From an uncultured Oscillospiraceae bacterium (GTDB lineage Bacteria; Bacillota; Clostridia; Oscillospirales; Oscillospiraceae): a stretch of DNA of 34,595 bases. This document shows, piece after piece, positions 3,534 through 29,114 of this stretch. The stretch is taken from NCBI GenBank assembly GCA_947629755.1, contig CANREY010000015.1, forward strand, positions 1 through 34,595, in the 5' to 3' direction. The notes under the pieces were generated by a model that saw only the letters and a program-made list of their open reading frames with translations, ran no database searches and had not been told where the DNA came from. The position numbers and the translations under genes are program-made. The number at the start of each line of letters is the position of its first letter. Position 1 is the stretch's first letter.

Positions 3534-4295
3534 TCACACCTCCGGCTCAGGGACCGTGAGTATCTCAGGCTCGCCGTCGGTGACGAGTATGGAGTTTTCG
3601 TAGTGGGCCGCCATGGAGCCGTCCTTGGTGACCACGGTCCAGCCGTCACGCAGCGTGCGGACCGCCCAATCGCCCGCGGCGACCATTGGCTCCACCGCCA
3701 GCGTCATGCCGCGGACTATCCTGGCCCCGTGCCCGGCTTTGCCGTAGTTGGGTATCTCAGGCTCCTCGTGCATCACGGCTCCGACGCCGTGTCCCACGTA
3801 GTCGCGTATGACCGAAAAACCGTTGACCTCCACGTATTCCTGGACCGCGTGGCCGATGTCGGAGATCCGGTATCCCGGACGGGCGTATTTTATGCCCTCG
3901 TAAAAGCTCTGCTTAGTGACACGCAAAAGCCTTTCCGCCTCGTCGTCCCTCGCGTTTCCCGCGATGAAGGTCGCCGCGCAATCCCCAACGAACCCGTCAA
4001 AGGTGGCGCCCACGTCGATGCTGACGATGTCGCCGTCCTTTATGACGTACTTGCCCGGTATGCCGTGTATGACCACCTCGTTCACCGAGATGCACACGCT
4101 GGCCGGGTAGTCGTTGTAGCCGAGGAAGGTGGGGTACGCGTGCTCTGATCTGATAAATGATTCTACCGCTTTGTCTATTTCTTGGGTTGTTGCGCCGGGG
4201 ACCGCCATTTTTCCCGCAAGTTCGCGGGCAGCCGCGGCAATTCGTCCAGCCTTGCGCATCTTTTCAATTTCCCGGAGTGACTTTATACGTATCAT
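3534..4295 (-). CDS. map: Type I methionine aminopeptidase
   Basis: Map removes the initiator methionine from nascent proteins with a dinuclear metal centre. The 253-residue protein has the pita-bread fold motifs: the metal-binding aspartates in SIDVGATFDGFVGDCAATF, the histidine in YVGHGVGAVMHEEPEIPNYG, and the glutamate in TLAVEPMV. There is no N-terminal zinc finger or SH3 extension, so it is the short bacterial form. It starts 2 nt after the adk stop and ends 1 nt before the KOW gene. Confidence 0.97.
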   Translation of the reverse strand: MIRIKSLREIEKMRKAGRIAAAARELAGKMAVPGATTQEIDKAVESFIRSEHAYPTFLGYNDYPASVCISVNEVVIHGIPGKYVIKDGDIVSIDVGATFDGFVGDCAATFIAGNARDDEAERLLRVTKQSFYEGIKYARPGYRISDIGHAVQEYVEVNGFSVIRDYVGHGVGAVMHEEPEIPNYGKAGHGARIVRGMTLAVEPMVAAGDWAVRTLRDGWTVVTKDGSMAAHYENSILVTDGEPEILTVPEPEV

Positions 4296-16030: not shown

Positions 16031-16433
16031 TTTTCTTTCCTCCAAAATCGTACATTAAATAGTACGGTGAAAAATTTTCCGTACACATATCCGTGCGTAT
16101 CACTCCCGCTCAGAAATAAAGCCGGACATGGTCCGGCCGTATCCTGTCCAAGCGATATACGCGTTTATCGCCATGTCTTAGGAAAATCCTTCAGCCGCCC
16201 GATTGCGTCGTCGCTTAAAATCGCGTTATTCGCCGTTCGGCAGACGCTTTCGCGCCAGCCTCGCGGCTCACACGCTGACTTCGCTCCTCCTTTCCCTCCA
16301 TGACGTTTACGTCATGTCGGGTCAGGAAAGGGTTCCAGCAACGACCGGACATACTCCCCGGAAGTTACCGCCTCTCGGCGCAATCTCCCGGATCATCGCA
16401 GTGCGCTCTGGGACATACTTTCTCCGCAGGCGC
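16031..16433 (-). promoter_or_regulatory. Long structured 5' leader of the S10 operon
   Basis: About 400 nt separate the promoter at 16440-16468 from rpsJ. Structures seen include CATGACGT/ACGTCATG (16299-16306 and 16309-16316), enclosed by CCTTTCC and GGAAAGG, giving a hairpin over about 16290-16332. A terminator-like stem GCCGGAC/GTCCGGC (16121-16137) is followed on the minus strand by TTTATTT. Two mutually exclusive stems stand just upstream of the rpsJ ribosome-binding site: 16049-16053 with 16062-16066, or 16062-16067 with 16079-16084. No convincing ORF is present. The arrangement suggests attenuation or a ribosomal-protein leader; this is inference. Confidence 0.5.
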
Positions 16434-16530: not shown

Positions 16531-16556
16531 AAAAAAGCCGCCCGGAGGCGGCTTTT
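16531..16556 (-). terminator. Terminator after the anti-sigma/VanX gene
   Basis: On the minus strand AAAAGCCGCC-TCCG-GGCGGC is followed by TTTTTT, 10 nt after the stop codon. The stem is GC-rich, the T run is clear, and the A/T flanks make it potentially bidirectional. Confidence 0.85.
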
Positions 16557-16566
16557 GAGCGGTTTT

Positions 16567-17667
16567 TTATTCCTCGACGACCGGGTATACCACCGTATCC
16601 GTGTAGTGCCACCACTCGGCGCTGTACGGCGTAAAGCCGTGGACGGACATGAGCTTTTCAAGGAGCTCGGCGTTTGCGGCGGCGGTCTCGGTGACGTCGG
16701 AGTAGTCCCTGTCGGCCCTCGCCGTGAAGTCGTCAAAGCCCGTGGGCATCTCCAGCTCCACGCCGTCCAAGGTCACTAATGTAATATCCACCGTGTTGCC
16801 CCGGCTGTGCTTGGACCCGCTGTGGTTGGGGTTCGCCACGTATCTTGAGTCCGGACATATCTCCCAAAGCTTGTACTGAGCCGACGTGGGGCGGTAGGCG
16901 TCCCATATCTTCAGGGACAGGCCCATCTCCCGAAGCTCCGTCTGGACCTCCATGAGCTTTTTGACCGTGCCGTACCTGAGCCTCGCCTCCGTGAAGTCGT
17001 AGATCACCTGCCCGGTGAAATTGTCCTCCGTCGCGTATTTCAGGTCCACGTATATGCCCGGAATGTAGACTGTCACGTCCACCAGGTCCCCGTCCTCCGG
17101 CTCGAATACCTCCCCGGTTGGCTCCGTCGGGGGCTCCGTGGGCGGTTCAGTTGGCGGCTCCGTGGGCGCGGTAGTGGGCTCGACTGTGGGCTCAGCTGTC
17201 GTGTCCGTGGGGCTCGTGGCCACCGGTGTGCCGCCCTCCGGGCCTATGCACACGGCGGGCGAATCGCCGGGCCCCGTCACGTCCCGCGGCTCTATGCCGT
17301 AGGGCGCGATGCTCTCCTCCCCGCCGGGCTCCGTCGCTTCGGGCCCCTTCAAGAGCTTCGGCACAAAGGCCACCGCCAGCACCGCCGCGGCGGCCAGTGA
17401 GGCGGTGACACCTATGTAGCGGCGCCGCCGCATGGCGCTCTTTTTGGCGCGAAGCGCTCTCACCCCCGCCATAACGCCCGTCAGAAGCTCCTCCGGGGGC
17501 TCGGCGCTCTCGGAAAGGGCCTCGCGGGCAAAGCGCATTGCGTCAAAAAGCTCCCTGTCCTCAGGCCGGGACGCCAAAAGCCACTCAAGCTCCGCCTCGT
17601 CCTTTGCCCCAAGCCGGCCGTCCAGCCTCGCACTCATAAGCTCGTAGAGCCGTTCCCTCTCGGTCAC
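16567..17667 (-). CDS. Anti-sigma-like membrane protein fused to VanX-type D-Ala-D-Ala dipeptidase domain
   Basis: The 366-residue protein has three parts. Residues 1-80 are charged, helical and cytoplasmic, like anti-sigma domains, but have no HxxxCxxC zinc motif. RRRR at 80-83 precedes a single membrane helix (about 84-103), so the C-terminus is predicted outside. A Thr/Pro/Glu linker with PPTE repeats (about 145-195) leads to a peptidase M15D domain (about 196-366). Key VanX residues are present: DAYRP with Arg259, SKHSRG with His287, Asp294, and EWWHY with Glu351 and His354. GTG at 17667 overlaps the sigma stop as GTGA, behind AAAGGAGGG. The pairing with an ECF sigma gene suggests wall-precursor sensing; the substrate is unknown. 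No vanH or vanA lies nearby. Confidence 0.85.
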   Translation of the reverse strand: MTERERLYELMSARLDGRLGAKDEAELEWLLASRPEDRELFDAMRFAREALSESAEPPEELLTGVMAGVRALRAKKSAMRRRRYIGVTASLAAAAVLAVAFVPKLLKGPEATEPGGEESIAPYGIEPRDVTGPGDSPAVCIGPEGGTPVATSPTDTTAEPTVEPTTAPTEPPTEPPTEPPTEPTGEVFEPEDGDLVDVTVYIPGIYVDLKYATEDNFTGQVIYDFTEARLRYGTVKKLMEVQTELREMGLSLKIWDAYRPTSAQYKLWEICPDSRYVANPNHSGSKHSRGNTVDITLVTLDGVELEMPTGFDDFTARADRDYSDVTETAAANAELLEKLMSVHGFTPYSAEWWHYTDTVVYPVVEE

Positions 17668-18287
17668 TCCCGCGTCCCTCCTTTCCGTTTATTGGACTGA
17701 TTGTTAGACTGTGCGTGAAAAGTAAATGTTCCGCTGTTTTTCAAATTTTCAGCAAGGGCCGCTCTGGCTCTTGCAAGGCGGGACTTCACCGTGCCCTCCT
17801 CCAGCTTCAGGACCCTCGATATTTCCGCGTAGCTCATGCCCCGGTACTCACGCATCATGAGTATTATCCGCTTGTCCTCATTAAGCTCCGAAAGGGCCCG
17901 GCGGACGCTCTCCAACTCCTCCCGGCGCTCCATGAGCTCGTCGGGGCCGGGGCCGGGGTCCGGGGCGTCAAGCTCCGCCCCCTCCTCGTCCGTGGGCATG
18001 GACACCACGTGGCCCCGACGGCTTTTCTTGATGAGGTCCATGCAGGCGTTGTAGGTGAGCCTATATAGCCACACGGACACCCGGCTGTCGCCCCGGAAGG
18101 ACTTTAAATTCTGGTAAGCCTTCAAAAAAGCGTCCTGAGAGGCGTCCAGCGCGTCCTCGGCGTTGCCGGTGAGCTTCAGGGCGAGATTGTACACGTGCTT
18201 CTGGTTTTCCCGCACCAGCCTCTCGAAGGCCCGGTCGTCGCCTTGGGCGGCGGCGCGGACGATTTTCTGTTCCTCCTCGGCGGTCAC
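17664..18287 (-). CDS. ECF-family RNA polymerase sigma factor
   Basis: The 207-residue protein directs RNA polymerase to alternative promoters. Region 2 spans about residues 20-92 (GNAEDALDASQDAFLKAYQN, then SVWLYRLTYNACMDLIKK), and region 4 about 125-180 (MREYRGMSYAEISRVLKL, then GTVKSRLARARAAL). An acidic linker with DAPDPGPGPDE joins them. The last 25 residues are polar and Asn/Lys-rich, beyond the usual end. GTG at 18287 overlaps the dusB stop as GTGA, and the 3' end overlaps the anti-sigma gene as GTGA. It is therefore probably transcribed from the dusB promoter and held by the downstream membrane protein; no separate autoregulated promoter is visible. Confidence 0.93.
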   Translation of the reverse strand: MTAEEEQKIVRAAAQGDDRAFERLVRENQKHVYNLALKLTGNAEDALDASQDAFLKAYQNLKSFRGDSRVSVWLYRLTYNACMDLIKKSRRGHVVSMPTDEEGAELDAPDPGPGPDELMERREELESVRRALSELNEDKRIILMMREYRGMSYAEISRVLKLEEGTVKSRLARARAALAENLKNSGTFTFHAQSNNQSNKRKGGTRE

Positions 18288-19276
18288 GCTCCGCGCCCCC
18301 TCTCCTCGTCTCGCAAAAAGTCAAGAATGTCCCTCGACACATTATATATATCCTGAAGGGTGGTCATACTCATGAGCTGTCCCTTGAAAAAGGCCGCTCT
18401 TGGCATACCCTTCAGGTACCATGCGAAGTGCTTTCTGGCCTCAAGACAGGCCGTCCTCTCGCCAAGGACCTCGGCGCTTCGCTCAAACTGCCTGACGGCC
18501 GTCCGGACCCTCTCGGAATACGGCGGCGGCGCCGGGAGCTCCCGGCCCTCCATCGCGGCGCGGCACTCGTCGAATATCCACGGGTCGCCCATGGCCCCAC
18601 GGCCTATCATGACGGCGTCCGCGCCGGTGCTTTTCAGCATGGCCGCCGCGTCCGGCCCGGAGAAAATGTCGCCGTTGGCGATGACCGGCACGGACACCGC
18701 CGCCTTCACCGCGGCTATTATCTCCCAATCGGCCCGGCCTGAGTACATCTGCACCCTCGTCCTGCCGTGGACGGCTATGGCGGAGGCCCCGGCCTCCTCG
18801 CACATTTTCCCAAATTCCACCGCGTTTATGTGAGCCCCGTCGAAGCCCTTGCGGAATTTCACCGTCACGGGCCGGTCGGAGCTTTCGCGTACCGCCTCGA
18901 TTATTCTGCCCGCCAGCTCCGGCCTTAGCATGAGGGCCGAGCCGTCGCCGGACTTTACGACCTTGCCCACGGGGCAGCCCATGTTTATGTCGATGAGGTC
19001 GCAGTTTGAGATCTCGCACGCTTTCGCCGCGGCCTCGCCCATGCAGACGGGGTCCGAGCCGAAAAGCTGTACCGCCGCGGGGTGTTCGTTCTCCCCCAGC
19101 TCCATTATGAGCCGTGTCTTTTTGTCCTGATACATGAGGGCCTTGGAGCTCACCATCTCCGTATATGTGAGGCCCGCCCCGTGGGCCCGGCAGACCTCCC
19201 GGAAGGCAAGGTCCGTAACTCCCGCCATTGGCGCCAGCGCAAGACGCGATCTTACCTCAACTCCGCCTATATTCAC
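18284..19276 (-). CDS. dusB: tRNA-dihydrouridine synthase, DusB family
   Basis: Dus enzymes reduce uridine in tRNA D-loops using FMN and NADPH. The 330-residue TIM-barrel protein has LALAPMAGVTDLAFREVC at the start, the catalytic cysteine Cys101 in DINMGCPVGKVVKSGDGSAL, and IAVHGRTRVQMYSGRADW plus IANGDIFSGPDA, then IGRGAMGDPWIF in the FMN-binding part. The start is GTG behind GGGGAGG. It heads an operon with the ECF sigma and anti-sigma genes. Confidence 0.95.
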   Translation of the reverse strand: MNIGGVEVRSRLALAPMAGVTDLAFREVCRAHGAGLTYTEMVSSKALMYQDKKTRLIMELGENEHPAAVQLFGSDPVCMGEAAAKACEISNCDLIDINMGCPVGKVVKSGDGSALMLRPELAGRIIEAVRESSDRPVTVKFRKGFDGAHINAVEFGKMCEEAGASAIAVHGRTRVQMYSGRADWEIIAAVKAAVSVPVIANGDIFSGPDAAAMLKSTGADAVMIGRGAMGDPWIFDECRAAMEGRELPAPPPYSERVRTAVRQFERSAEVLGERTACLEARKHFAWYLKGMPRAAFFKGQLMSMTTLQDIYNVSRDILDFLRDEERGRGA

Positions 19277-19312: not shown

Positions 19313-19341
19313 ATTTTACGCAATTTTCACCCGTATGTCAA
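19313..19341 (-). promoter_or_regulatory. Promoter of the dusB-sigma-anti-sigma operon
   Basis: The minus strand reads TTGACA (19336-19341), 17 nt, TAAAAT (19313-19318). This is a near-perfect housekeeping promoter starting directly behind the hpf terminator. Confidence 0.8.
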
Positions 19342-23252: not shown

Positions 23253-23803
23253 CCGTCTATCTCGTCCGCCACGGCGAGACCGCCTGGAACAAGGAAAGCC
23301 GCATACAGGGCCGGGAGGACGTGCCCCTTGACGCCGACGGCCTTGCTCAGGCGGAGAGCTGCGCCAAGGGGTTTCTGGGCAAAAAAATATCCGCCGTCCT
23401 CTCAAGCCCCCTGTCGAGGGCCTTGGAGACGGCGAAGCTCATCGGAAAGGCGGTGGGCGCCCCCGTATATGTGGAGCCGGACCTCACCGAGCGGGACTTC
23501 GGGAGCGTATCGGGCCGCGTGGTGGACATCTTCAACCCGGAAAAATACGCCAGCGACTTAGAGCCTCTGGACGATGTTGCGGAGCGTATGCTCTCCGTCC
23601 TTCGCCGGTACGCGGAAAGGTTGCCCCATGATTTCGCCGCCGTGTCCCACGGAGGGGCCATAAACGCCCTTTTGCGGGCGGTTTCCGGGGGAGAAATAGG
23701 GAGCGGCAAGACACGGCTCATAAACGCCGGAGTCAGCGTGCTCAAATTTGAAAACGGGAGCTTCACCGTAGCCGGATACAATCTGCGGCCGGGGGAATAT
23801 TGA
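23249..23803 (+). CDS. Histidine phosphatase family protein
   Basis: The 184-residue protein has the phosphohistidine active-site motif LVRHGETAWNKESRIQG at residues 5-21 and the second catalytic part SHGGAINALLRA near residue 134. VLSSPLSRALETAKLIG and LTERDFGSVSGR are also typical of the GpmB/CobC-like branch. Substrates in this branch range from phosphoglycerate to cobalamin or nucleotide phosphates and cannot be assigned. It starts inside the tetR stop, and the folT promoter begins right at its end. Confidence 0.9.
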   Translation: MTVYLVRHGETAWNKESRIQGREDVPLDADGLAQAESCAKGFLGKKISAVLSSPLSRALETAKLIGKAVGAPVYVEPDLTERDFGSVSGRVVDIFNPEKYASDLEPLDDVAERMLSVLRRYAERLPHDFAAVSHGGAINALLRAVSGGEIGSGKTRLINAGVSVLKFENGSFTVAGYNLRPGEY

Positions 23804-23805
23804 GC

Positions 23806-23834
23806 TTGCCTTTTCACATATCCTCTGATATAAT
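23806..23834 (+). promoter_or_regulatory. Promoter of folT
   Basis: TTGCCT (23806-23811), 17 nt, TATAAT (23829-23834) begins 3 nt after the phosphatase stop. Transcription would start near 23841, just ahead of the riboswitch. Confidence 0.75.
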
Positions 23835-23856
23835 CTTACCAAATCCAACACATGCT

Positions 23857-23955
23857 GTGCAGAGTAGGCCGGCGCGCGTTAAGTGCCCATGGGACGGAGA
23901 GTTGCCTTTGGGACGAAGGGTCATTCCCGCGGTGCGCCCGCCGCATCCCGCTGCG
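23857..23955 (+). promoter_or_regulatory. Tetrahydrofolate (THF) riboswitch
   Basis: The segment carries the conserved blocks of the folT-type THF riboswitch in order: GAGTAG, GCGTTAAGTG, GGGACGAAGGGT, CGCGGTG and CCGCATCCCGCT. A closing P1 stem forms between GCAG (23859-23862) and CTGC (23951-23954). It lies directly upstream of the folate transporter gene, the known context of this class. The GGGAGGAGG ribosome-binding site lies about 40 nt downstream, so control of translation or of RNA folding ahead of it is likely. Confidence 0.92.
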
Positions 23956-24009
23956 ACAGAGAGAACATCTCCTGCCTTGTGGAATTTCTGCATGGGAGGA
24001 GGTTTTTTT

Positions 24010-24582
24010 GTGAAGAAATTTACCGGTTCACTCATAAGCTCCTTTTTGGAGCTCAAGCGCCTCAGGTCCCTCACGTTCCTCGCCGTCATGGGCGCTCTTG
24101 CTTTGGCGCTGGAGGCCGTGGCCAGCCTCGATCTGGGGCCCTACATATCCATCGGCTTTTCGGGCCTTCCAAATCAGCTTGTGGACCTCCTGCTGGGGCC
24201 CTCCGCCGGGGGACTTTTCGCGGGGGCCATGGACGTGCTCAAGTACCTCATAAAGCCCGCCGGGCCATTCCACTTCGGCTTCACCTTTGACGCCATGCTG
24301 GCGGCCTTCATCTACGGGTGCTCCTACTACGGCCGCCCGGTGACGCTAAGGCGGATATTCATAACGAAGCTCATCGTCACCGTGGTCGTCAACATGGCCC
24401 TTGGCACCATGTGGATAAGCCTGCTCTACGGCCGGGCCTTTATGGTCCTCCTGCCCTCACGGGCTCTCAAGGACCTCCTCGTCTGGCCGGTGGAGTCCAT
24501 GATATTCTACACTCTTGCCCTTGCCTTGGAGGACGCGGGGATATATAAGCTCCTCAAAAAAGACTCCCCAAGACTTCACTGA
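24010..24582 (+). CDS. folT: Folate ECF transporter S component FolT
   Basis: FolT is the substrate-binding membrane subunit that joins the shared EcfA/EcfT module to import folate. The 190-residue protein has about six hydrophobic helices. LRSLTFLAVMGALALALE opens the first, GLPNQLVDLLLGPSAGGLF is typical of FolT, and FHFGFTFDAMLAAFIYG follows. The GTG at 24010 is chosen because GGGAGGAGG lies 8 nt upstream; the longer open frame would read through the riboswitch. It ends 2 nt from tatD, which is convergent. Confidence 0.92.
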   Translation: MKKFTGSLISSFLELKRLRSLTFLAVMGALALALEAVASLDLGPYISIGFSGLPNQLVDLLLGPSAGGLFAGAMDVLKYLIKPAGPFHFGFTFDAMLAAFIYGCSYYGRPVTLRRIFITKLIVTVVVNMALGTMWISLLYGRAFMVLLPSRALKDLLVWPVESMIFYTLALALEDAGIYKLLKKDSPRLH

Positions 24583-26164: not shown

Positions 26165-27112
26165 ATGCGAAAATCAGTTAAGCTATTCAGTATTTTATTG
26201 GCGCTGGCGGTTGTGATCTCCGTCGTCCCGGTGGCCGGGGCCCTGGCGGACGGGGTAGAAGTGGCGGACACACCGGAGGCAACAGCCGCGACAGAAGCGA
26301 CAACCGAGCCGGAAGCAACGGAAACGGCAGCCCCGGCGGACAGCAACGGGTTCGCGCCCCAAAACCTCAGGTGGGAGGGCACAACGCTTCTTTGGGACCC
26401 GCCGTATCCGATGCCGACGGCTAAGGATATGGGTCTTGACTCCAGAGAGACGCAATATCTGTTAAACTATGAGGTGAGCCTCCATAAAACAGATTCCTAT
26501 TCCGAGCCTGAAATTCCATTTAGAATGTCATACGCTCCGGTCGGGGCCGGTGGCACGATAACGGACGATACATTTGTCAACGACCTGACGGATGGCGGCA
26601 CCTTCTACTTCACCGTGCAGCTTGTGGCTATACCAGTTGTGCCAAATGGCGGTAGTCGCAAACCGTTATGGAGCGGAGCTCTCGCCACTTCAGGTCCGGC
26701 GACATTCGAAAAGGTCGAAAAAACTCCGCTTGAAAAGCCCGAAATTGATGTCGACAACACATTTATAAGCACACGAAGTGATTTTAACCCAGCGACTTGG
26801 GACTTTGATGAAATTGAATTGCTCGAAGTCACGCTGAAAGCCGAATCGGAATGCGAAAAGTGCCTGTATGTATTGACGTGGTACGGGACCAACGACGAAC
26901 CGGCGACGACAGACTCCAGCTGGACAAAAATTACCAGCGCCGGACAACTCGGCCTGAGCTTTTCAATACCCACCGCAAGGGCGGAGGGATACAAGCACTT
27001 GGCGTTCACTATTCAATTCTACTGCATGGACGGCAAGCATACAGAAGGCCCGGAAAGCGACAAGGTGCTTCTTGATAGCATACAGAAAAAAAACCGACGA
27101 CGAAGCACTTGA
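26165..27112 (+). CDS. SLH surface protein, N-terminal part (split by frameshift)
   Basis: This 315-residue frame starts with a signal peptide (KLFSILLALAVVISVVPVAG, cleavage near residue 29). A Thr/Ala/Glu spacer (about 30-60) follows, then two beta-rich segments that look like fibronectin/Ig-type modules (LRWEGTTLLWDPPYP, and later WYGTNDEPATTDSSWTK). After Lys309 in the A8 run at 27086-27093 it continues with only six unrelated residues (NRRRST) to a stop. The natural continuation is the +1 frame from 27093. With seven A's the two frames would form one 982-residue protein. Base composition is more AT-rich than neighbouring genes. Confidence 0.8.
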   Translation: MRKSVKLFSILLALAVVISVVPVAGALADGVEVADTPEATAATEATTEPEATETAAPADSNGFAPQNLRWEGTTLLWDPPYPMPTAKDMGLDSRETQYLLNYEVSLHKTDSYSEPEIPFRMSYAPVGAGGTITDDTFVNDLTDGGTFYFTVQLVAIPVVPNGGSRKPLWSGALATSGPATFEKVEKTPLEKPEIDVDNTFISTRSDFNPATWDFDEIELLEVTLKAESECEKCLYVLTWYGTNDEPATTDSSWTKITSAGQLGLSFSIPTARAEGYKHLAFTIQFYCMDGKHTEGPESDKVLLDSIQKKNRRRST

Positions 27113-29114
27113 AGTAAAACCGGATAACATCGTTTTTAACCCCGATGGTACTGTGACATGGAGTATAGACGGGACGATCCCCGAAGAATACGAAGGGGTA
27201 TATTGGTCTGTATATATCTATAACAAGGCCTCCGGGAGCTTGGTCGGGACCGATAACGGTTACGTAAGAGCCGACGGGGAAAGCTACGGGTCTGAGATTA
27301 CGAGCTCCGCGGGTATAAACATCGAACAAAATGGCACATATATTGCGCTGGTAACTCTTCACGTCACCGTTGAACAGGCCGTAGAGCCGGGCACGCCGAG
27401 CGTTACCCGCAGAAGCGAAGCTCTTTCCAATGATCTTACGGTCAACACGGAGAGCGCCCTGTCCGTCCCCACCGGATTTAAGCTTGAGTGCGACTATTAT
27501 AATACTACTGAAGGGTTTGGATTCTGGGAGCCGACTATCTCAGGGGAGCCGGCGGAGAGCGAAGGCGTCAACGTGACTTACTTGGTGACCTGGTATATAA
27601 GACAGGACGCGGCGTGGGAAGATGTGATGGATTTCTTATCACCGATCACCGATACTGCGCAAAAGAGCTTCCTTTCAATAACACCCGATGGCGCTGAGCT
27701 CGCGATGAAGGTAAAATCTCGCACCAGCGACCTCACAAAGGCCCGGAGCAGTACATACTCCGATTACATTGAGCTAAGTAACCTCACGCTCAGCTTGAAC
27801 GAAGATTTCTTTACCGTGGACACCTCCGACGCCGTTTACACCGGGTCCGAGATAACAAAAACCGTCGCGCCCTCGGACATTTTCGGAAGCTCCTTATTCG
27901 GACATACCCTAATTCAGGACACCGACTACACCGTTACCTACGCCAACAACACCGAGGTGGGCACGGCGACAATAACGATCACCGGCATCGGCAAGTACAC
28001 CGGTGAGCTTACATACAGCTTTAATATCACCGCGGCCCCCTCCGGCGGCGGTGAGGCCGGAGACGGCGACTACGACTACGATGATGATGACGATTATTAT
28101 ACCCCGCCTACCCCCTCAGACGTGATCGAGAGCACCACCAACGCGGACGGGAGCGTCACCCAGACGGCCACCCACGCCGACGGTTCAAAAACGGAGACGA
28201 CCACCACGGCTGACGGCGTTGTCGGCACGGTAGAGCGCTCCTCCACCGGAGAGATAGTCTCCGCCGAGGTGACCGTCTCAGCCTCCGCGGTCGGCGGAAT
28301 CGTAACGGCTCCTTTGGAGGTGACCGCCTCCGCCGACAGCGCGAACGCCCCGGAGATAAGCGTTAAGGCGCCGGCCGGAAGCATCGCGAAGGTAGAGATA
28401 CCCGTTACCGGCGTTGGCCCCGGCACCGTGGCGGTGAAGGTCAATCCTGACGGCACCGAGGAGGTCATACGGGACTGCGTGGACGGAAAGAGCGGCGTTA
28501 TCTTCAGCACGGAGGGCGACGTCACCGTGAAGATCGTTGAGCGGAGCAGCTCCTTCACCGACATGAGCGGCAACAGCGCCTGGGCCAGCGACGCCGTGGA
28601 GTTTGTGGCCGCAAGGGAGCTGTTTAACGGCACAGGCAACAACAATTTCACGCCGGCGGGCACTATGAGCCGCGGCATGATGGTGACCGTCCTTTACCGT
28701 CTGGCGTATGAGCCGGAGACCGCCGATACCGGTGCGGCCTTCGACGACGTGGGAGGCGACAAGTTCTATTCCGAGGCGGTGGCATGGGCCGCTGACAATA
28801 ACGTAGCCAACGGTTACAGCGCCGGCACCTTCAGCCCTGACGACAACGTAACACGGGAGCAGCTGGTCACAATGCTGTACCGCTACGCCAAGTCCGGCGG
28901 TTGGGACGTCACCGCGTCCCAGAGCCCGCTGAGCGGCTTTGCCGACGGCAACGATGTCCATGACTACGCCAAAGACGCAATGGCCTGGGCCGTCAGCGCG
29001 GGCATCATCTTGGGGAACAATAACGGAGATTTGTCCCCGGAGGGCAACGCCACCAGAGCCGAGGCCGCGACGATCCTGATGCGCTTTTGCAAAAACATAA
29101 TCAACGCCGCGTAA
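27072..29114 (+). CDS. SLH surface protein, C-terminal part with three SLH domains (split by frameshift)
   Basis: The open frame from a TTG at 27072 lacks a signal peptide and is best read as the continuation of the preceding frame from 27093. It holds further beta modules and a bacterial Ig-like domain (about 240-320; VYTGSEITKTVAPSDIFG, DTDYTVTYANNTEVGTATIT). A linker of Gly and Asp/Tyr (DYDYDDDDDYYTPP) and a Thr/Ala-rich segment follow. Three SLH domains begin at FTDMSGNSAWASDAVEFV, FDDVGGDKFYSEAVAWAA and GFADGNDVHDYAKDAMAW. SLH domains bind secondary cell-wall polymers, usually pyruvylated, and hold the protein on the cell surface. Whether an intact product is made depends on the A-tract. 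Confidence 0.88.
   Translation: MIAYRKKTDDEALEVKPDNIVFNPDGTVTWSIDGTIPEEYEGVYWSVYIYNKASGSLVGTDNGYVRADGESYGSEITSSAGINIEQNGTYIALVTLHVTVEQAVEPGTPSVTRRSEALSNDLTVNTESALSVPTGFKLECDYYNTTEGFGFWEPTISGEPAESEGVNVTYLVTWYIRQDAAWEDVMDFLSPITDTAQKSFLSITPDGAELAMKVKSRTSDLTKARSSTYSDYIELSNLTLSLNEDFFTVDTSDAVYTGSEITKTVAPSDIFGSSLFGHTLIQDTDYTVTYANNTEVGTATITITGIGKYTGELTYSFNITAAPSGGGEAGDGDYDYDDDDDYYTPPTPSDVIESTTNADGSVTQTATHADGSKTETTTTADGVVGTVERSSTGEIVSAEVTVSASAVGGIVTAPLEVTASADSANAPEISVKAPAGSIAKVEIPVTGVGPGTVAVKVNPDGTEEVIRDCVDGKSGVIFSTEGDVTVKIVERSSSFTDMSGNSAWASDAVEFVAARELFNGTGNNNFTPAGTMSRGMMVTVLYRLAYEPETADTGAAFDDVGGDKFYSEAVAWAADNNVANGYSAGTFSPDDNVTREQLVTMLYRYAKSGGWDVTASQSPLSGFADGNDVHDYAKDAMAWAVSAGIILGNNNGDLSPEGNATRAEAATILMRFCKNIINAA
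27086..27093 (+). other. A8 homopolymer at the frameshift site
   Basis: Eight adenines follow CAG and precede CCGACGACG. Removing one joins the two SLH-protein frames exactly (Gln-Lys-Lys-Thr-Asp-Asp). Such tracts slip during replication and transcription. A sequencing error in the tract would look the same. Confidence 0.8.

Follow-up and report, generated by a model that had tools for sequence, protein, structure and literature searches.

A membrane anti-sigma factor with a predicted VanX-type peptidase outer domain in a dusB-sigma factor cassette of an uncultured Oscillospiraceae bacterium

In contig CANREY010000015.1 of an uncultured Oscillospiraceae bacterium (assembly GCA_947629755.1; the whole stretch of 34,595 nt is called the window below), we describe a cassette consisting of dusB, a gene for an extracytoplasmic function (ECF) sigma factor and a gene for a membrane anti-sigma factor, in which the anti-sigma protein carries a VanX-type M15D peptidase domain where its relatives have another outer domain. 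We are nearly certain of this anatomy as read from the sequence, which comprises the gene cassette, what the domains are, the completeness of the active site and the exchange of the outer domain. The interpretation that we favor, with a probability of roughly 50%, is that the cassette encodes an RsiW-type switch in a dusB operon, whose ordinary outer domain has been replaced by a membrane-tethered, VanX-fold zinc peptidase of the D-Ala-D-Ala type that may act as an enzyme-sensor. The cue sensed at the wall by ECF anti-sigma factors is often unknown, and here the substrate class can be recognized, so that the signal can be guessed. If the interpretation is correct, an enzyme would here serve as a sensor, much as in RsgI6 with its GH10 domain, but for peptidoglycan precursors or fragments.

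The outer domain is matched by Peptidase_M15 over residues 193-355 (1.7e-34; 119.8 bits against a cut-off of 27). In a phmmer alignment to VanX (1r44), with the positions counted by hand, the five residues that the initial annotation had picked out as retained, R259, H287, D294, E351 and H354, fall on R71, H116, D123, E181 and H184 of VanX, which we take to be the VanX active-site residues. By this comparison the domain is a member of peptidase family M15D with the VanX fold, having the His/Asp/His zinc ligands and the catalytic Glu and Arg all present. The same architecture is found at full length in four of the 34 genomes of the genus (that of the window, G017, G024 and G030), with no internal stop in any and with the other three proteins 56-82% identical to that of the window, and all the catalytic and substrate-site positions that we checked are kept in the four fusions. 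For the M15D part, the ratio of nonsynonymous to synonymous change (omega, NG86) is 0.10, 0.15 and 0.18 for the window against the three relatives and 0.10-0.26 across the six pairs of fusions, as opposed to 0.34-1.11 in the linker, the values being rough, with synonymous sites near saturation in several pairs. The presence of the architecture in four genomes without stops, together with the low omega of the M15D part relative to the linker, implies that it is more than a chance arrangement. The domain is probably an active D-Ala-D-Ala-type peptidase. It differs from VanX and DdpX in being predicted to lie outside the membrane as part of an anti-sigma factor, and in scoring under the cut-offs of the narrower models, with 93.2 of 320 bits for the VanX equivalog NF033115 (NCBIfam) and 165 of 176 bits for PRK10178, which presumably models DdpX. 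In VanX the segment preceding the SxHxxG motif is also longer.

The partner encoded upstream is an ECF sigma factor (group IV of the sigma-70 family), a protein of 207 residues with regions 2 and 4 only, matched by Sigma70_r2 (PF04542, residues 24-91, 1.8e-16) and Sigma70_r4_2 (PF08281, residues 126-178, 1e-15); the best match in the PDB is AlgU (6in7_B, 3.6e-30), with SigW (5wuq_A) at 8e-21. This sigma protein, used as a query over 60 genomes at E 1e-20, found matches in 45, its own genome included, and we fetched the loci of 40 of the 44 others, which makes 41 with the window. In all 40 relatives dusB adjoins the sigma gene, and the gene after the sigma gene is anti-sigma-like, 33 times by blastp and seven times by position and an HxxxCxxC motif. 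In one of these loci (L169:4377-5373) dusB is split over two overlapping frames and may be broken or misassembled.

Counting the window, 36 of the 41 proteins encoded after the sigma gene keep the HxxxCxxC zinc motif, and the five that lack it are those of the window, G017 and G030 and of the unfused G031 and G027. The remaining fusion, G024, keeps it and matches both zf-HC2 (2.1e-8) and Peptidase_M15 (6.7e-33). A profile built from 27 of the anti-sigma domains, 22 of which are matched by zf-HC2, aligns with RsiW of the SigW-RsiW complex (1.2e-10, positions 1-76), with 3hug_B (1.3e-4) and, more weakly, with ChrR, RsrA, MucA and RseA (0.004-0.07). Zinc and non-zinc members are described as intermixed across the class I anti-sigma tree, the motif not being required of the class (PMC7406223). 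Since HxxxCxxC is kept by homologs encoded at this locus in relatives and by the G024 fusion, the inner domain is, by homology, a class I (RsiW/zf-HC2-type) anti-sigma domain that has lost its zinc motif. The initial annotation was thus correct in finding no zinc motif in the window protein, while the distinct anti-sigma class that it suggested from this absence is rejected. Nor did an assignment to the RsgI type hold: none of the Pfam and NCBIfam matches listed is to an RsgI family, the partner is an ECF sigma factor and the domain is of the RsiW type.

Between the two domains lie the single membrane helix and the PTE-repeat linker noted earlier, both of which we recovered from hydropathy and sequence. 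The helix spans approximately residues 83-104, with the best 19-mer hydropathy (2.16) at 84-102 and with seven Lys or Arg in the 12 residues before this 19-mer and two in the 12 after it; the predicted topology has the N-terminal domain inside and the peptidase outside. Within the helix A95 is invariant and A94 is present in at least 90% of 27 aligned rows. In the predicted structure, the blocks of confidence values (predicted local distance difference test, pLDDT) over residues 101-170 are below 60.

Among the sampled relatives the dusB-sigma-anti-sigma arrangement is conserved, and what varies is the peptidase. In 37 of the 41 proteins something other than M15D forms the outer part, and 17 of the 27 unfused rows from the genus share a pattern in their final region, the others differing (a count in which L159 is misframed). 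A search for the domain pair in other genomes, as had been suggested at the outset, yielded the four genomes of the genus and no full-length fusion outside it in samples of the family (200 genomes; E 1e-20, at most nine candidates per genome), the order (394; E 1e-30, at most five) and the phylum (398; E 1e-40, at most four), samples that overlap and in which a fusion whose inner domain is strongly divergent could be missed. The fusion as a common architecture is therefore ruled out within the samples searched, full-length matches being confined to the genus. In the titles and abstracts of the open-access literature searched, there was no report of a fusion of an anti-sigma factor with M15 or of BlaR1 with VanX; of two papers among those listed, PMC8791391 uses 'M15' for a lacZ allele and PMC12419801 has VanX only in a reference.

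The trees hint at how the outer domain reached this locus. On the sigma and DusB sequences (35 rows), G024 has the unfused G032 as its sister (100/98), and the approximately unbiased test rejects the grouping of the four fusion species as a clade (p-AU 4e-7), while in the M15D tree the four fusion domains make one group (99/86). For the latter tree, 145 proteins and the window were collected, 92 passed the thresholds of at least 44% identity and match length, and 79 rows were left after removal of identical rows and five named loci. The sigma and DusB tree splits the fusions while their peptidase domains group, and the outer domain was therefore either acquired here repeatedly, from close sources, or passed from one species to another. 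A single gain with later losses would need, by our count on the sigma and DusB tree, about four losses, each with the ordinary outer domain regained; two gains, or one gain and a transfer, would be simpler. None of the four fusion species has another full-length M15 domain, as against 18 of the 30 other genomes of the genus (Fisher p 0.039, in a test that ignores kinship and with the G017 genome 76% complete).

The best argument that M15D senses something is that it is found on two unrelated membrane switches, the second and independent one being receptors of the BlaR1 type. Three proteins have M15D at the C-terminal end of an M56 receptor (L036:1330-3567, L041:1315-3534 and L035:3-2324), an end that we take to be outside the cell by the topology of BlaR1; a further protein, L043:3-1727, is cut by an edge, has no PF05569 in the available part and was assigned to the M56 type because it aligns with L036. 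A BlaI gene lies near two of them, overlapping in L041 and with an open reading frame of 135 residues in between in L036. In L041 an ECF sigma gene (3705-4289) comes after the receptor gene. The combination occupies two positions in the M15D tree, where L036, L041 and L043 group with L184 (99/94) and L035 lies elsewhere. In a sample of the class (391 genomes, two candidates each) no match extended across both parts at 1e-60, and the combination is either rare or was missed by this search. The enzyme-sensor idea, already raised in the initial annotation, gains from the presence of M15D on these receptors too. A wider proposal, with a probability well short of even odds, treats M15D as a portable and catalytically active receptor for wall peptides, which Clostridia fitted separately to ECF anti-sigma factors and to BlaI-linked M56 receptors, such that D-Ala-D-Ala-ended material hydrolyzed or bound outside would set transcription directly.

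In the M15D relatives that remain when the anti-sigma and M56 fusions are set aside (71 of 79 rows), a crude test by hydropathy and lipobox gave an export-like N-terminus in 57, of which 35 are lipobox-like and 22 have a hydrophobic stretch only; 14 have neither. Exported relatives thus appear to be common, yet not the rule everywhere, and the initial annotation's statement that VanX is normally cytoplasmic gives less cause for surprise to that extent. M15D is also present on long lipoproteins (L006, L007-L012, L038, L040, L044, L045 and L047), where its joining to a Cthe_2159-type carbohydrate-binding domain is confirmed by Pfam in L006 and assumed by similarity in the others.

In the switch that we favor, the cytoplasmic domain would hold the sigma factor, and outside the membrane the peptidase would be active, or would at least bind free D-Ala-D-Ala or wall peptides ending in D-Ala. 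Release would then probably proceed by regulated intramembrane proteolysis. Occupancy or turnover could alter how readily a site-1 protease reaches the stalk, in either direction, after which an M50 site-2 protease (a 351-residue frame in the same genome is a candidate) would cut in the membrane, ClpXP-like degradation of the Ala-Ala-ended remnant would free the sigma factor, and the released sigma factor would turn on envelope genes. Single steps have been described in other systems: ligand binding to the outer domain of RsiV starts a proteolytic cascade (PMC5014341), site-1 cleavage of RsiP is reported to be done by a signal peptidase (PMC8844934), and ClpXP is reported to recognize XAA sites, for RsgI (PMC12203970).

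The nearest precedents appear to be RsiW for the architecture and RsgI6 for an enzyme-type outer domain. SigW-RsiW of Bacillus subtilis (5wuq) likewise combines an ECF sigma factor with a class I anti-sigma factor, but the window protein has lost the zinc motif, and RsiW is not known to carry a peptidase outer domain. RsgI6 of Clostridium thermocellum is described as a membrane anti-sigma factor with an enzyme-family (GH10) outer domain that binds the substrate of the enzyme with little activity (PMC4711584), but it belongs to the SigI/RsgI family and its domain is a glycoside hydrolase, whereas in the window the pair is of the ECF/class I type and the domain that of a wall-dipeptide peptidase. 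RsiV of B. subtilis has an outer domain acting as a receptor, in which the ligand triggers site-1 cleavage; as described, it binds and inhibits an enzyme, lysozyme (PMC5014341), whereas the outer domain in the window is itself of an enzyme family. BlaR1/MecR1 with BlaI also comprises a receptor in the membrane whose sensor domain is outside, and two of its M15D-capped M56 homologs lie near BlaI, but it signals through a repressor and not a sigma factor, and its known sensor domain is described as acylated by beta-lactams (PMC9834060).

Several observations weigh against the enzyme-sensor interpretation. The fusion is rare, the inner domain of the window alone has no Pfam match at 0.01 (zf-HC2 reaches only 0.17), the PrsW family has no match in the same genome, which leaves the site-1 protease without a candidate, and the regulon of the sigma factor was not found, either in the upstream patterns of the 41 loci or by searching the whole genome for the pattern. 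M15D relatives mostly lie outside regulators, and most of those examined, within short flanks, have no sigma gene as a neighbor, an outcome that the initial annotation had named as counting against its idea; this comparison tests the wrong part of the protein, because it is the anti-sigma domain and not the peptidase that is tied to the sigma factor. Finally, the GH10 domain of RsgI6 is barely active though of an enzyme family, so an intact active site is no proof of turnover. The M15D domain could be an enzyme that has lost its activity and retains only ligand binding, sensing without catalysis as proposed for RsgI6-GH10 (PMC4711584), and a catalytic domain that serves as a sensor would require binding alone. 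We consider this rather unlikely, in view of the retained catalytic and substrate positions in all the fusions, the purifying selection on the M15D part and the lack of any other full-length M15 domain in the fusion species. This lack could also suit a protein in which the anti-sigma part is a mere membrane anchor for an exported peptidase that has no signaling role, as could the long and weakly conserved linker and the many export-like N-termini among the relatives, to which the fusion may add another anchor. However, such a protein would have to signal without its usual outer part, the ordinary domain being gone, and M15D caps the unrelated BlaR1-type receptors too, and we regard the anchor explanation as unlikely. 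An artefact of assembly or gene fusion in one draft genome (130 contigs) is negligible, given the same uninterrupted architecture in four separate genomes at 56-82% identity.

The features of the locus are given in Table 1. The sigma gene and the peptidase-bearing gene lie where they were first annotated, overlapping by GTGA (17664-17667), and a second GTGA overlap between dusB and the sigma gene (18284-18287) links all three genes in series.

Table 1. Features of the dusB cassette and of the anti-sigma protein in the window
Feature	Coordinates	Strand	Basis or remark
dusB	18284..19276	-	TIGR00737 2.1e-113; first gene of conserved cassette
ECF sigma factor, 207 aa, AlgU/RpoE/SigW-like	17664..18287	-	Sigma70_r2 and Sigma70_r4_2; PDB matches
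Anti-sigma factor with VanX-type M15D outer domain, 366 aa	16567..17667	-	domain searches, structure prediction
Residues 1-80: class I anti-sigma domain, zinc motif lost	17428..17667	-	profile and homolog comparison
Residues 81-106: membrane helix with conserved Ala-Ala	17350..17427	-	hydropathy; alignment of 27 rows
Residues 107-190: low-complexity PTE linker, weakly conserved	17098..17349	-	omega; pLDDT
Residues 191-366: VanX-fold M15D domain; R259, H287, D294, E351, H354, Y211, S285, D312	16570..17097	-	
Probable promoter TTGACA-17-TAAAAT for dusB-sigma-anti-sigma	19313..19341	-	11/12 consensus matches
Probable intrinsic terminator 3' of anti-sigma gene	16531..16556	-	10-pair stem-loop, then U run

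For the probable terminator, a 66-nt stretch folds with z -2.39, and four of 200 shuffles fold equally well. A promoter-like box resembling that of the window was seen in 18 of the 19 upstream stretches inspected by eye (41 were computed). In 16 of these 18 dusB promoters, again by eye, a CG precedes the -10 box (CGTANAAT) and could overlap an ECF -10 element. Simple ECF-type patterns, looked for 5' of dusB as a check on autoregulation, matched in five of the 41 loci, none of them the window or another fusion locus. In the genome-wide search, the pattern occurred at 18 places with three or fewer mismatches and the control at one, and only the dusB site matched exactly. After the anti-sigma gene, an S10-Clostridia ribosomal leader (16314-16404; 37.1 bits vs 35.1) precedes ribosomal protein genes. 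Farther along the window, a tetrahydrofolate (THF) riboswitch (23858-23955, 88.3 bits) overlaps the start of a called frame (23800-24582) for the substrate component of an energy-coupling factor (ECF) transporter, the true start of which is probably downstream of the called one. A 315-residue frame (26165-27112), with no Pfam match at 1e-6, adjoins a gene (27072-29114) for a 680-residue protein with three S-layer homology stretches.
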